Shown: one piece after another, positions 9,950 to 15,387 of the stretch
Layout of the letters: the number at the start of each line of letters is the position of its first letter
Position numbering within the stretch: the first letter of the stretch is position 1
Assembly: GCF_900115155.1 (NCBI RefSeq)
Contig: NZ_FOVM01000011.1
Location: 1-64,000 of the forward strand
Direction of reading: 5' to 3'
Source: Mycetocola miduiensis
GTDB taxonomy: Bacteria > Actinomycetota > Actinomycetes > Actinomycetales > Microbacteriaceae
Length of the DNA stretch: 64,000 nucleotides
Made by a program: the position numbers and the translations under genes
Notes under the pieces: model-generated
What the model saw: only the letters and a program-made list of their open reading frames with translations
What the model was told of the DNA's origin: nothing
Database searches by the model: none

Positions 9950-10579
9950 ATGGCTGACGAGTTCCACAAGCCCACCAAATTTCCCGGCAAAATCTTCGAG
10001 TCGTTCGTCGGCGGGATCGACCCGGCCGAGTCGAGCCGCATCGCCCACGAGACGGCGATGGCGCTGCTCGCGCGAGTTCGCGTCGACCCCGACCCGGATG
10101 TTGTCGAGCGGCTCGTGGCGTACACCGACGAGAACGGCATCGACACGATCGCCGAGCTGTGGTCGCGGGCGACGCCGCGAAGCCTGCCGGGCGCGCTCTG
10201 GCGGATCTACCTGCTGCGGCTGATGATCCGTGAAGACCCGCACGAGTCGAGCTACCTTTTCCAGCGGGGGAGCGAGATCATCGGCACGATCGACCCTGTC
10301 GTGGCCGGAGCGTCGATGCCGACCGGCCCCGACGAGATCATTACCCTCGCCGATCAGATTCTCCGCGGCATCTTCGAAGGCGACTTCGCGGTCGCCCTGG
10401 AGAGAGCGGCAGCGTTCTGCCGGGTGTCAGCGGCAGGCAGTGCGAGCGTCGCCGACGATTCGGATGCCGCCGAACCGACCCGGTCGGCGGCGCTCACCAC
10501 CCGCGCCCTCAGGCTGTCGACCCTCGCCGACGAGCTCTCTAGCTGTGCCAGGCTCTGGCGGCACGAGTCGCTCGACTGA
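9950..10579 (+). CDS. Conserved actinobacterial protein of unknown function
   Basis: A 209-residue soluble, mostly helical protein beginning MADEFHKPTKFPGKIF. No catalytic motif, signal peptide or membrane helix is visible. A purine-rich site (GAAAGGGG) precedes the ATG. Similar proteins in Microbacteriaceae are, to my recollection, sometimes labelled as RNA polymerase beta subunit, but nothing in this sequence supports that label. It sits alone between tRNA-Lys and the PAP2/DGK gene. Confidence 0.75.
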   Translation: MADEFHKPTKFPGKIFESFVGGIDPAESSRIAHETAMALLARVRVDPDPDVVERLVAYTDENGIDTIAELWSRATPRSLPGALWRIYLLRLMIREDPHESSYLFQRGSEIIGTIDPVVAGASMPTGPDEIITLADQILRGIFEGDFAVALERAAAFCRVSAAGSASVADDSDAAEPTRSAALTTRALRLSTLADELSSCARLWRHESLD

Positions 10580-12202: not shown

Positions 12203-12525
12203 CGCCGCAGGCTGGTGTCTCTCAATCGAACCGAAGCGAGTGACACAGGACAAATACCGATCCCGCCGCAAGTCAAGTGTGTTCGCGCGGCGAGAACACG
12301 GACTATCGCTCGCCCTCGGTTGCTACACTTGTTCAAGCCGGGCCGCATAACCCCGGGCTCCAATTTTTGCCGCCGCGAGCGGCCTTCCGCCGAGAGGCGT
12401 TTTGCGGCCCGGCACCTTCAGTTAACGCGCGGGTTCGACCGCAGCCGCGGACTCGCGAGGCTGACAGTTCCCTGAGATCCGACATCCGGGGCAAACCAGT
12501 TCACATCCCGCGCCGAATCGCTTGC
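12203..12525. other. Intergenic region before the SigK locus
   Basis: There is no convincing gene. GTGTTC-N9-GAACAC at 12279-12299 is a perfect inverted repeat, followed by a -10-like TACACT at 12324-12329. A weak GC-rich hairpin at 12336-12359 followed by five Ts could be an attenuator or terminator. The lipoprotein gene downstream starts at 12526, so a long leader is possible. Confidence 0.4.
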
Positions 12526-12975
12526 ATGACTTCACTGCTTCGGTTCCGCACCCGCATCGCCCTCCCGGCGGCGCTCGCGCTGTCGCTCGCCGGGCTCAGC
12601 CTCACCGGCTGCGCATCGGGCGAACCCGGATCAACGAAGCCAGGCGGTTCGAGCCCGACATCGTCGGCTGTGAACAGCGACGTCACCCTGGTGAGCCTCA
12701 ACTTCATGCCGGAGACCCTCACGGTCTCTGCCAGAGACACGGTCACCTGGGTCAACGGAGAATCCATCACCCACACCATCACGAGTGGGGCCTTCTCCGA
12801 CGTCGACGAGACCACGGGCCTTCGCGGTAGCGAAACGTCCGATGGCCTCTTCGACGAGCGACTCGGCCAGAAAGGTGGCACGTTCTCGTACACCTTTGAG
12901 ACCGCCGGGACCTACCCATACTTCTGCGACATCCATGACGGCATGAACGCCACCGTGGTCGTCGAAGAGGGATGA
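12526..12975 (+). CDS. Cupredoxin (plastocyanin-like) lipoprotein
   Basis: A 149-residue exported protein: signal peptide, then lipobox LSLTGC with the lipidated Cys near residue 29. The mature part is a blue-copper domain with type 1 ligands visible as His in SITHTITSG, Cys in PYFCDIHDGM, and the following His and Met. It probably carries electrons or copper outside the membrane. The ATG at 12526 gives a proper signal peptide; a longer in-frame extension to 12277 would destroy it. It is first in a cluster with another lipoprotein, sigK and rskA, suggesting SigK control. Confidence 0.9.
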   Translation: MTSLLRFRTRIALPAALALSLAGLSLTGCASGEPGSTKPGGSSPTSSAVNSDVTLVSLNFMPETLTVSARDTVTWVNGESITHTITSGAFSDVDETTGLRGSETSDGLFDERLGQKGGTFSYTFETAGTYPYFCDIHDGMNATVVVEEG

Positions 12976-13049
12976 TCGCCGACGCTGGCGATCGAATCCA
13001 ACCACCCCCGTCACATCCGCCCGCTAGGGCACATTCCAAGGAGAACGTC

Positions 13050-13745
13050 ATGAAAAAGGCAACACCCCTCGTCGGCGCAGCGCTCGCCGCAGCTCTGCTC
13101 CTCTCCGGATGCAGCATGGGCGCCGCGAACGACTCCATGTCGAGCGGTACATCGTCGAGCGACGAGAAAGCCGCCGCCAGCGCCGAAACGGTCGACACTG
13201 TCAACAGTGACGGCGCCGGACTCCGAGCCGGGCTGACCGCGCTATTCAGCGACCACGTCTACCTGGCCGGCGCGGCCATCCACGCCGCCCTCGCCGCAAA
13301 CGGCGACCTGACCGAAGCGAAGACCGCCGGAGCCGTCGCAGCGCTCGACGCCAACTCGGTGGACATCGCCGCCGCCGTCGGTTCGGTCTACCCGGATGCC
13401 GAGGAGCCGTTCCTCGAGTCCTGGCGCGAGCACATCGGGTTCTTCGTCAACTACACGATCGGAAAGGCCACGGGCGACCAGGCCGGAGCCGACGCCGCCG
13501 TTGCCGACCTGACAGAGTACGCGGCAAGCTTCGGCGAGCTGCTCAACTCGGTCGTACCGACCCTCCCGGCGGATGCTGTCGAGGAAGCGCTCGGGATGCA
13601 CGCGACGTCGCTCATCGCGGCGATCGACGCGGACATCGCCGGCGACCCGCAGTACTACACCCTCCTGAAGGAAGCAGCCGGCCACATGCCGATGACCGCA
13701 ACGGCTATCGCAGGCGCCATTGCTGAAGATCAGGACATCGAATAA
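13050..13745 (+). CDS. Helical lipoprotein of unknown function next to SigK
   Basis: A 231-residue lipoprotein: MKKATPLVGAALAAALLLSGC gives a signal peptide with lipobox LLSGC. The ATG at 13050 follows AAGGAG at 13038-13043. The mature protein is Ala-rich and alpha-helical, with two similar halves that may form a helical bundle (one begins SDHVYLAGAAIHAAL, the other contains MHATSLIAAIDADI). Family name not recognised. It lies between the cupredoxin lipoprotein and sigK, so a shared extracytoplasmic role is likely by context only. Confidence 0.85.
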   Translation: MKKATPLVGAALAAALLLSGCSMGAANDSMSSGTSSSDEKAAASAETVDTVNSDGAGLRAGLTALFSDHVYLAGAAIHAALAANGDLTEAKTAGAVAALDANSVDIAAAVGSVYPDAEEPFLESWREHIGFFVNYTIGKATGDQAGADAAVADLTEYAASFGELLNSVVPTLPADAVEEALGMHATSLIAAIDADIAGDPQYYTLLKEAAGHMPMTATAIAGAIAEDQDIE

Positions 13746-13828
13746 CACGTCCCGAACGTGAAGGGCGGGCGACGGTATTAGATCGTCGCCCGCCCGAGCG
13801 GCGTCTGCGTATCGTCGGGGAACCTGAC

Positions 13829-14428
13829 ATGCTAGTTCTTGTGGAAAATGCACAAGGTACCGAGAGCGACGTGGCTGCCGGCCCGTCGACGCTCGAGGAA
13901 CTACTCGGGCGCGTCGCGACCGGAGACCAGCAGGCATTCGCTTCCCTGTACGACCTGCTTGCACCTCGGGTTCTCGGGCTGATCCGCAAGGTGCTGCTTG
14001 ACCATGCCCAGTCCGAGGAAGTCGCACAGGAGGTCTTCCTCGAGATCTGGCAGAACGCTACCCGCTTCGAACCGGGAAGGGGCGCCGCCGCCTCCTGGAT
14101 TCTGACGATCGCCCACCGCCGGGCGATCGACCGGGTCCGGGCATCACAGGCTGGCCGGGACCGAGACGTGAGGATCGGAATCCGGGATTTCCCCACCGCA
14201 TTCGACTCAGTAGCCGAATCGGCGGAGATCTCCGTCGAACACGAGAGAGTGAGCCGGGCCATGGCGAACCTCACCGAGATACAGCGACAGGCTGTCTCTC
14301 TGGCCTACTACGGCGGATACAGCCAAAGCGAGGTGGCCGACATCCTGTCGGTTCCCCTTGGAACAGTGAAGACCCGTCTGCGTGACGGGATGATGAGACT
14401 ACGAGACGAGATGGGGGTGGCATCATGA
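13829..14428 (+). CDS. sigK: ECF sigma factor, SigK type
   Basis: A 199-residue group 4 sigma factor. Region 2 is visible around LLDHAQSEEVAQEVFLEIW and ILTIAHRRAIDRVR; region 4 around LTEIQRQAVSLAYYGGYSQ with the helix-turn-helix SEVADILSVPLGTVKTRL. The pattern and the adjoining RskA anti-sigma gene match mycobacterial SigK. ATGs at 13829 and 13848 are both possible. It overlaps rskA by ATGA, giving coupled translation of sigma and anti-sigma factors. It is expected to be autoregulated and to drive the two upstream lipoproteins. Confidence 0.93.
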   Translation: MLVLVENAQGTESDVAAGPSTLEELLGRVATGDQQAFASLYDLLAPRVLGLIRKVLLDHAQSEEVAQEVFLEIWQNATRFEPGRGAAASWILTIAHRRAIDRVRASQAGRDRDVRIGIRDFPTAFDSVAESAEISVEHERVSRAMANLTEIQRQAVSLAYYGGYSQSEVADILSVPLGTVKTRLRDGMMRLRDEMGVAS

Positions 14429-15342
14429 CCGAGAACCGCGATCCGGCAGAACTCGCGGGAGCGTACGCCCTCGACGCGCTGAGTGCCGACGAGAAGGCAG
14501 AATACGAACGTCACCTCGCCTCGTCCGCCGACGCACGCCGCGAGTCCGAGAGCCTTGCAGCGACCGCGGCAATGCTCGGCTTCGACGCTGACCCGGTCCA
14601 GCCGTCAGCAGGCCTTCGCGCCAGTGTGCTTGACGCGATCGCGTCCACCCCACAACTGCCCGAAATAACGGTCCCTGTTATGGATGCCGCAGGGCCGGTA
14701 GCGGATGCCGCGGCCCCGGCAGTCAGCCAGGCACCGGTCGCAGCGACCGACGAAGGCGCCCCGAAGGCGCAGCCCGTCCGGCCGACGTCACAGCCTGCAG
14801 CACCGACCACCAAGGCCGCCACCGCCCGGTCGGCGTCGGGTAACGCCGAGCGCAAAGCCAGCCGACGGTGGTACACGCAGCCGCTCGCCGCTGTGGCTGC
14901 CGCCGCGGCCCTCGTCGTCGTGCTTCTCGGTGTCAACGGGCTCACCAGCGCGTTCAACAACGGCAATGGCCTCCCCGAGGCGCTGCAGCTCGCGCACATC
15001 AATGCCCAGCCTGACGCCCAGCGGGAGACCGTGAGGCTGACCAACATCAACGACGACAAACGCGTCGTCGCCACTCTGGTCTGGTCGGGGGAGCTCGGCC
15101 AGTCGGCGCTCGTCGTCGACGGACTCGCCTCACTCAGCGACGAACAGATCTACGAGCTCTGGTACATCGGCGAGGACGGGGCTACCCCTGCCGGAACCTT
15201 CAACACGACCGGGACCGGCGACAGCTGGCGGATCCTCGAAGGTGCCATGGAAGCCGGCGACGCCGTCGGCGTGACCGTGGAACCGGCGGGCGGTTCGGAG
15301 CAGCCCACCACAGACCCGCTCATCGTCGTCCACACGGCGTAG
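14425..15342 (+). CDS. rskA: Anti-sigma-K factor RskA
   Basis: A 305-residue single-pass membrane protein. The N-terminal sigma-binding domain (residues 1-75) resembles the ZAS fold (ALDALSADEKAEYERHL) but lacks the zinc cysteines. An Ala/Pro-rich linker follows, then a membrane helix at about 153-172, then an extracellular RskA domain ending near 305 (VDGLASLSDEQIYELWYI). In mycobacteria, regulated proteolysis of RskA releases SigK. Here the outer domain would sit beside the two lipoproteins encoded upstream. Confidence 0.92.
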   Translation: MTENRDPAELAGAYALDALSADEKAEYERHLASSADARRESESLAATAAMLGFDADPVQPSAGLRASVLDAIASTPQLPEITVPVMDAAGPVADAAAPAVSQAPVAATDEGAPKAQPVRPTSQPAAPTTKAATARSASGNAERKASRRWYTQPLAAVAAAAALVVVLLGVNGLTSAFNNGNGLPEALQLAHINAQPDAQRETVRLTNINDDKRVVATLVWSGELGQSALVVDGLASLSDEQIYELWYIGEDGATPAGTFNTTGTGDSWRILEGAMEAGDAVGVTVEPAGGSEQPTTDPLIVVHTA

Positions 15343-15353
15343 CGCAAAACCAC

Positions 15354-15387
15354 GAAAGCAGGAGATCCGATCGGATCTCCTGCTTTC
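15354..15387. terminator. Bidirectional terminator between rskA and pstB
   Basis: A perfect 34-base palindrome: GAAAGCAGGAGATCCGA followed by its exact complement. It lies 12 bp after the rskA stop and 34 bp beyond the pstB stop on the other strand. Confidence 0.85.

Follow-up and report, generated by a model that had tools for sequence, protein, structure and literature searches.

In a 64,000-nucleotide (nt) stretch of the Mycetocola miduiensis (Microbacteriaceae) genome (contig NZ_FOVM01000011.1, positions 1 to 64,000; hereafter the window), four genes lie in one shared direction between positions 12526 and 15342. On the forward strand, these encode a plastocyanin-like blue-copper lipoprotein of 149 amino acids (aa) (cup, 12526 to 12975), an all-helical lipoprotein of 231 aa (hel, 13050 to 13745), an extracytoplasmic function (ECF) sigma factor (sigK, 13829 to 14428), and an anti-sigma factor (rskA, 14425 to 15342), with the sigK and rskA reading frames overlapping by 4 nt. 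An earlier note on this stretch had proposed such a four-gene block, and all four open reading frames (ORFs) were found at the positions it gave. Taken with the comparative data below, the locus is a real, conserved, and new form of the SigK-RskA cassette, and one of the proteins it encodes is widespread yet uncharacterised.

The window SigK scored 271.9 bits against the NCBIfam model NF007228 (cut-off, 226). The window RskA scored 87.7 bits against PF10099 (cut-off, 29.4) and was also above the cut-off of NF052375, with its match to the RskA_N model just below cut-off. Neither protein contains a cysteine, and at most one was present in any of the 85 SigK domains tallied. A Cys133/Cys183 pair is frequent but not obligatory in the SigK family, occurring in 94% of ECF18 and 56% of ECF19 members according to PMC7509140. 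Because the window SigK lacks cysteine, the Cys133/Cys183 redox switch of mycobacterial SigK cannot act here, and redox sensing through a SigK disulfide is ruled out. That paper also reports regulated proteolysis of RskA in Mycobacterium tuberculosis.

The product of cup matched PF00127 at 45.6 bits (E value, 1e-11; cut-off, 21.2), carries a lipobox cysteine (Cys29), and has type-1 copper ligands readable from its sequence (H83, C134, H137, and M140), in agreement with the earlier description of a cupredoxin with such ligands. By this His-Cys-His-Met set in a member of the cupredoxin family, Cup is predicted to be a type-1 copper protein. A C-x2-H-x2-M segment with an upstream histidine was found in 25 of 25 Cup sequences checked, a set that left out loci L085, L097, L099, and L101. 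Cup is like the plastocyanin/azurin family (PF00127) in passing the family cut-off and in its full ligand set, but differs in having a lipobox and in its linkage to an ECF sigma factor and hel; its matches to the NCBIfam plastocyanin, amicyanin, and halocyanin models were below their cut-offs.

Hel (lipobox Cys21) was the unnamed helical partner of the earlier note, and the description stands: neither the window Hel nor any relative scanned scored above the cut-off of a Pfam or NCBIfam model. Four histidines (H69, H128, H184, and H212) are retained without exception, both across 29 sequences and across 13 that form a diverse set. AlphaFold predicts with confidence a domain made wholly of helices, starting near residue 53; three of the four histidines sit in separate helices, and H212 sits where two helices join. 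An internal duplication was not supported by half-against-half alignment (hhalign probability, 8.8 over 27 columns). The WKL family lipoprotein model (NCBIfam NF053527) weakly matched half a domain of the tandem relative L022 (E value, 8.2e-6; 25.8 bits against a cut-off of 105), with no match reported for the window Hel.

Hel matches at an E value of 0.001 were present in 13 of 150 family genomes, window genome included, and reached 1e-31 or better in 11. Ten Hel sequences used as queries in a scan of named genomes yielded 28 loci. Although these were found by hel alone, cup lay upstream in 27, sigK and rskA lay downstream in 21, and all four genes were present in 20. Judged from these loci, the arrangement of the block is more than chance. 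Non-conservation had been named beforehand as what would refute the earlier note; the block is kept. The closest named relatives of the window block are from Mycetocola. The Naasia locus L097 retains the promoter-like site and hel, with cup either truncated or absent. A gene for a protein with four transmembrane segments (4-TM) accompanies cup-hel in 20 of the 28 loci; it is not part of the window's block, and a search run without a positive control gave no match to it in the window genome.

When upstream regions were aligned at the cup start codon, the motif CAAWCC-N15-CCGAAY-N7-ATG emerged, matching exactly in 24 of 29 sequences (the 28 loci and the window). In the window, the -35 box CAAACC occupies positions 12492 to 12497 (+ strand), a position kept across orthologous loci, and the -10 box CCGAAT of the family-wide motif occupies 12513 to 12518 (+ strand), separated from the -35 box by 15 nt and from the ATG by 7 nt. 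At L076, L079, L085, and L097, the -10 box and both spacings are kept, and the -35 box carries one or two changes. A second exact match to CAAWCC-N15-CCGAAY was absent from all 29 sequences. Since the boxes are kept while the 15 nt between them vary, the motif represents a footprint rather than general similarity, and since only 7 nt separate the -10 box from the ATG, the cup mRNA is apparently leaderless. The mycobacterial SigK boxes are CCATCC and CCGAAT. So far as sequence can tell, the lipoprotein genes are preceded by a SigK-type promoter, as expected from the SigK dependence that the earlier note had proposed, and SigK very probably controls cup-hel. An AGTnnnCTG-like element, perhaps a candidate activator site, lies about 17 nt upstream of the cup -35 box in the window (12466 to 12474), and by eye many other loci are alike in this respect.

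Assignment of the motif to SigK was evaluated across wider genome sets. According to PMC7509140, Actinobacteria share highly conserved SigK sites, and the mpt70 promoter of M. tuberculosis can be used by SigK proteins from other species. The exact motif followed by a start codon was found in 85 of 299 family genomes, with no matches to a backwards-read control in any row listed. These family genomes listed 118 motif sites, and the surroundings of 90 (89 unique) were examined. Forty of the 89 lie upstream of sigK. The other genes downstream are SGNH-hydrolase-like (7 sites), alpha/beta-hydrolase-like (5), GtrA-like (4), DUF4383-like (3), cup (2), and small secreted proteins (2), with 2 more scoring as pstB and 3 sites lying within a matched gene (sigK in two cases); the hydrolase, GtrA, DUF4383, and small-protein labels were given by eye. 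We also examined 63 SigK loci without cup-hel, comprising 60 hand-picked places from which cup-hel genomes had been left out and three from sister Mycetocola. The motif, with either form of the -35 box, was present within 400 nt upstream of sigK in 33 of the 63 (control, 0). SigK matches were detected for all 16 genome handles searched (of which G075 and G971 are evidently one genome), including the genomes of all seven loci where cup-hel stands apart from sigK; the match in Amycolatopsis is only 49% identical. In G075, sigK lies approximately 60 kb from cup-hel, with the same motif 7 nt before the sigK ATG. Three other families of the order supplied nine tandem-hel loci, all of which have CCATCC-N15-CCGAAC ahead of hel. 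CCATCC-N15-CCGAAY occurs in 103 of 148 class genomes with few control matches (one site in the window genome, on contig C4).

Further sites of this type stand before genes of other kinds. In the window genome, a second SigK-type site, CAAACC-N16-CCGAAT (L132; G000:C6:232892-232919, - strand), lies about 50 nt before a gene judged by eye to be DUF4383-like; sites of this kind are also followed by a similar gene in G086, G872, and G075, adjoining sigK in the last. In other Microbacteriaceae (L152 to L241), the motif and a start codon precede SGNH-hydrolase-like, alpha/beta-hydrolase-like, and GtrA-like genes, as labeled by eye, and no description of a SigK regulon with such targets was found in a search of open-licence literature. 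Another SigK-type site (L157:1501-1537, G847) precedes a lipoprotein gene with a histidine-containing N-terminal linker, possibly another metal-related target.

The block is bounded upstream by a PAP2-DAGK gene and downstream by a convergent ABC ATPase gene and three more, named pstB, pstA, pstC, and pstS from sequence. In three sister Mycetocola (G002, G149, and G872), the slot before sigK-rskA-pst is instead filled by a divergent fasciclin lipoprotein gene and a gene for DipZ, which has DsbD-type membrane and thioredoxin-like domains. The upstream neighbor at window positions 9950 to 10579 is common to all three, and PAP2-DAGK is common to two, not being found in G872. No Hel match was detected in G002 or G149, nor within 14 kb around sigK in G872. 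A SigK-type site precedes dipZ in G872 and the fasciclin gene in G149; at the stringency used for these two, none was found before the cargo in G002. Since the same slot holds fasciclin and DipZ genes in sister Mycetocola, cup-hel constitutes an alternative cargo. Neither fasciclin (PF02469) nor DipZ was found in the window genome. Among genomes with cup-hel, the Mycetocola genome G086 has one fasciclin gene on another contig, and G074 and G083 have fasciclin genes elsewhere in the genome. Across loci, 22 of the 63 without cup-hel have a fasciclin or DipZ gene close to sigK, compared with 0 of the 28 with it.

The likeness to the mycobacterial system, as given in PMC7509140 and PMC3078919 (mpt83-sigK-rskA cassette, mpt70-dipZ-mpt83 targets), consists of SigK-RskA beside a SigK-promoted surface lipoprotein gene; mpt83, dipZ, and mpt70 are among the M. 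tuberculosis SigK targets listed in PMC3078919. In contrast to that cassette, the window cargo is a cupredoxin and an uncharacterised helical lipoprotein with no fasciclin lipoprotein, SigK is without cysteines, and the apparently leaderless promoter has a CAAWCC -35 box. When cargo labels were set by hand on a quick tree of SigK, cup-hel required 7 changes of label, no fewer than 3 of them forced by starred branches; this poorly resolved tree hints at repeated cargo exchange. The tree also splits the six Mycetocola. An approximately unbiased (AU) test does not reject them as one clade (P = 0.80), nor does the AU test for pstB (P = 0.78), and horizontal replacement of sigK-rskA with its cargo inside Mycetocola is not claimed.

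Relatives of Hel extend well outside the family. A phylum scan gave matches in 32 of 396 genomes, a few only marginal, and 22 of 30 hel ORFs in loci L016 to L044 encode two domains. In 21 further neighborhoods (L101 and the hand-picked loci L242 to L261, of which L260 is from the window's own family), a cup-like frame adjoins hel in 13 and lies 2.3 kb away in one more. An ECF sigma frame is situated within 1.2 kb of hel in 7 of the 21 (L243, L250, L255, L257, L258, L259, and L261), accompanied by RskA-like genes, as judged by clustering and by eye, at L250, L255, L257, and L259; at L250, sigma factor, RskA, hel, and cup are all together. Relatives of Hel, often encoded beside a plastocyanin gene, reach Bacillota. 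There, a tandem hel adjoins such a gene on a mobilizable plasmid of Planococcus versutus, and a P. lenghuensis plasmid carries hel without one. Pairing of cup with hel thus appears to extend beyond control by SigK. The Planococcus plasmid proteins, recorded as "copper amine oxidase," consist of tandem Hel domains with 34 to 38% identity to the window Hel and all four histidines aligned, differing from it in having two domains and, by eye, an LPxTG-like C terminus. No amine-oxidase model was among the matches listed for them, and the recorded name looks wrong. In the plastocyanin-like protein beside hel on one Planococcus plasmid (L384:4068-4580), the Cys-His-Met segment precedes the other histidine segment, an order that circular permutation or gene rearrangement would give.

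Two structured elements lie in the intergenic gaps. Between hel and sigK, a GC-rich hairpin (13763 to 13795, + strand) has a perfect 14-bp stem and a 5-nt loop without a U run; it is kept in three Mycetocola, and shuffled sequences never fold as well. It is a possible candidate for a transcript processing or partial termination site. In the gap between rskA and the convergent pst genes, a terminator-like inverted repeat (15354 to 15387) is predicted on the - strand; 2 such sites occur in the region versus 2.1 expected by chance.

Together, these data are consistent with a model in which RskA, as in its family, would keep SigK at the membrane until some signal arrives. Freed SigK would use the boxes at 12492 to 12518 to start a leaderless cup-hel mRNA, a step to which the conservation of the boxes points. 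Read-through past the hairpin may supply sigK-rskA as well; sigK in many relatives has its own copy of the motif. The hairpin could let the lipoproteins outnumber their regulators. The two lipoproteins would be produced together and anchored on the outer side of the membrane. There, Cup would transport electrons or copper, with one copper cycling between two oxidation states, and Hel would bind metal or heme through its histidines and dock with Cup, as the ligands of Cup, the invariant histidines of Hel, and the recurrent pairing suggest. That Cup and Hel jointly perform copper or redox chemistry we consider rather probable. For the whole chain, a SigK-RskA cassette in which the fasciclin/DipZ cargo is replaced by Cup and a four-histidine Hel acting as a copper/redox surface pair, we hold the chances to be a little better than even. 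Sequence directly shows the four genes, the footprint of the promoter and its tie to sigK, the alternative cargo, and the sets of ligands. The regulatory side of this reading is therefore well supported, and its biochemical side is no more than a reasoned guess.

Several observations weigh against this reading. No assigned gene lies downstream of 21 of the 89 motif sites. The Amycolatopsis locus L101 lacks the motif before cup, so the pair exists without this promoter. Beyond the order, CCATCC-N15-CCGAAC was exact in 0 and within one mismatch in 2 of the 19 hel loci scanned (L016, L017, L025, L029, L032, and L040 to L044 having been left out). One further exact match with a start codon in the window genome (G000:C7) opens only a 14-aa ORF. 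At L257, L258, L259, and L261, a sigma gene adjoins hel with no cup match, and hel is thus not always beside cup. No known fold or solved relative of Hel was significant (best Foldseek E value, 0.11; best VIA-align Z score, 9.6, to a designed protein and below that tool's level for helical bundles). Finally, the motif matches within the sigK coding sequence in 14 of the 63 loci, and a match need not mean a promoter. We treated these matches, and the two among the 89 sites, as coding coincidence rather than as promoters; the examples read encode a QTAxRFxPN-like stretch. Such sigK codons that spell the promoter motif (L318 to L383) either mislead motif scans or form an internal site.

Other explanations differ in how they account for the same loci. 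If sigK were merely adjacent and cup-hel were made from another promoter, the hairpin between hel and sigK could split two transcription units, and cup-hel without adjacent sigK, as in 7 of the 28 loci, would be natural. However, the exact motif precedes cup in 6 of these 7, and a SigK match, however distant in Amycolatopsis, is present elsewhere in each of the 7 genomes; a chance neighborhood is very improbable. The positional and promoter ties of hel to sigK, in the window's family and in other families of the order, would also suit a feedback role, in which Cup, Hel, or both touch RskA at its outer domain and signal the state of redox or copper as input to the switch. The cargo varies (fasciclin/DipZ, cup-hel, or neither) while rskA stays, as expected of an output, and beyond the order cup-hel mostly lacks an adjoining SigK-like gene, which makes this sensor quite unlikely. 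The earlier note had proposed a surface redox or copper-sensing circuit. A copper or redox role at the surface is plausible given the type-1 ligands, the four invariant histidines, and the plastocyanin-like gene beside hel in distant taxa, but copper sensing is without support: none of the findings links copper to the signal, no search for copper-responsive sites or regulators having been made.

The remaining alternative retains SigK as the switch and replaces electron transfer with copper handling, Cup and Hel binding or buffering extracytoplasmic copper as a chaperone, store, or means of detoxification. The ligands of Cup, the histidines of Hel (aligned even in Planococcus), and the lipobox of both proteins would suit such a role. 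A complete type-1 site, on general knowledge, fits electron transfer better than storage, and the flanking genes identified (PAP2-DAGK, pst) are not copper genes, in an analysis that made no genome-wide copper-gene search; we regard copper handling as unlikely, though less so than the feedback role. Returning to the SigK-driven copper/redox pair, a broader proposal is more tentative and, on present evidence, doubtful: that Hel founds a new metalloprotein family (four-histidine copper or heme) docking with plastocyanin-like surface proteins in Actinomycetota and Bacillota, and that SigK-RskA is a surface redox controller with fasciclin-DipZ and cup-hel as interchangeable outputs.

A literature search restricted to open-licence papers, in which a prior mention could have been missed, found no report of SigK or RskA joined with a cupredoxin. 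To our knowledge, the purpose of the mycobacterial SigK regulon is still unclear. A natural cargo swap in environmental Microbacteriaceae, together with a promoter predicted to the base, offers a simple place to ask what frees SigK, and the swapped cargo allows the common traits of SigK outputs to be asked. Hel is conserved yet lacks a curated model, and since hel is paired with plastocyanin-like genes in two phyla, a role in copper or redox chemistry can be tested directly. SigK-RskA, known for mycobacterial surface antigens, here appears to govern a copper-type surface protein and its four-histidine partner, and this could help to show the purpose of the switch.

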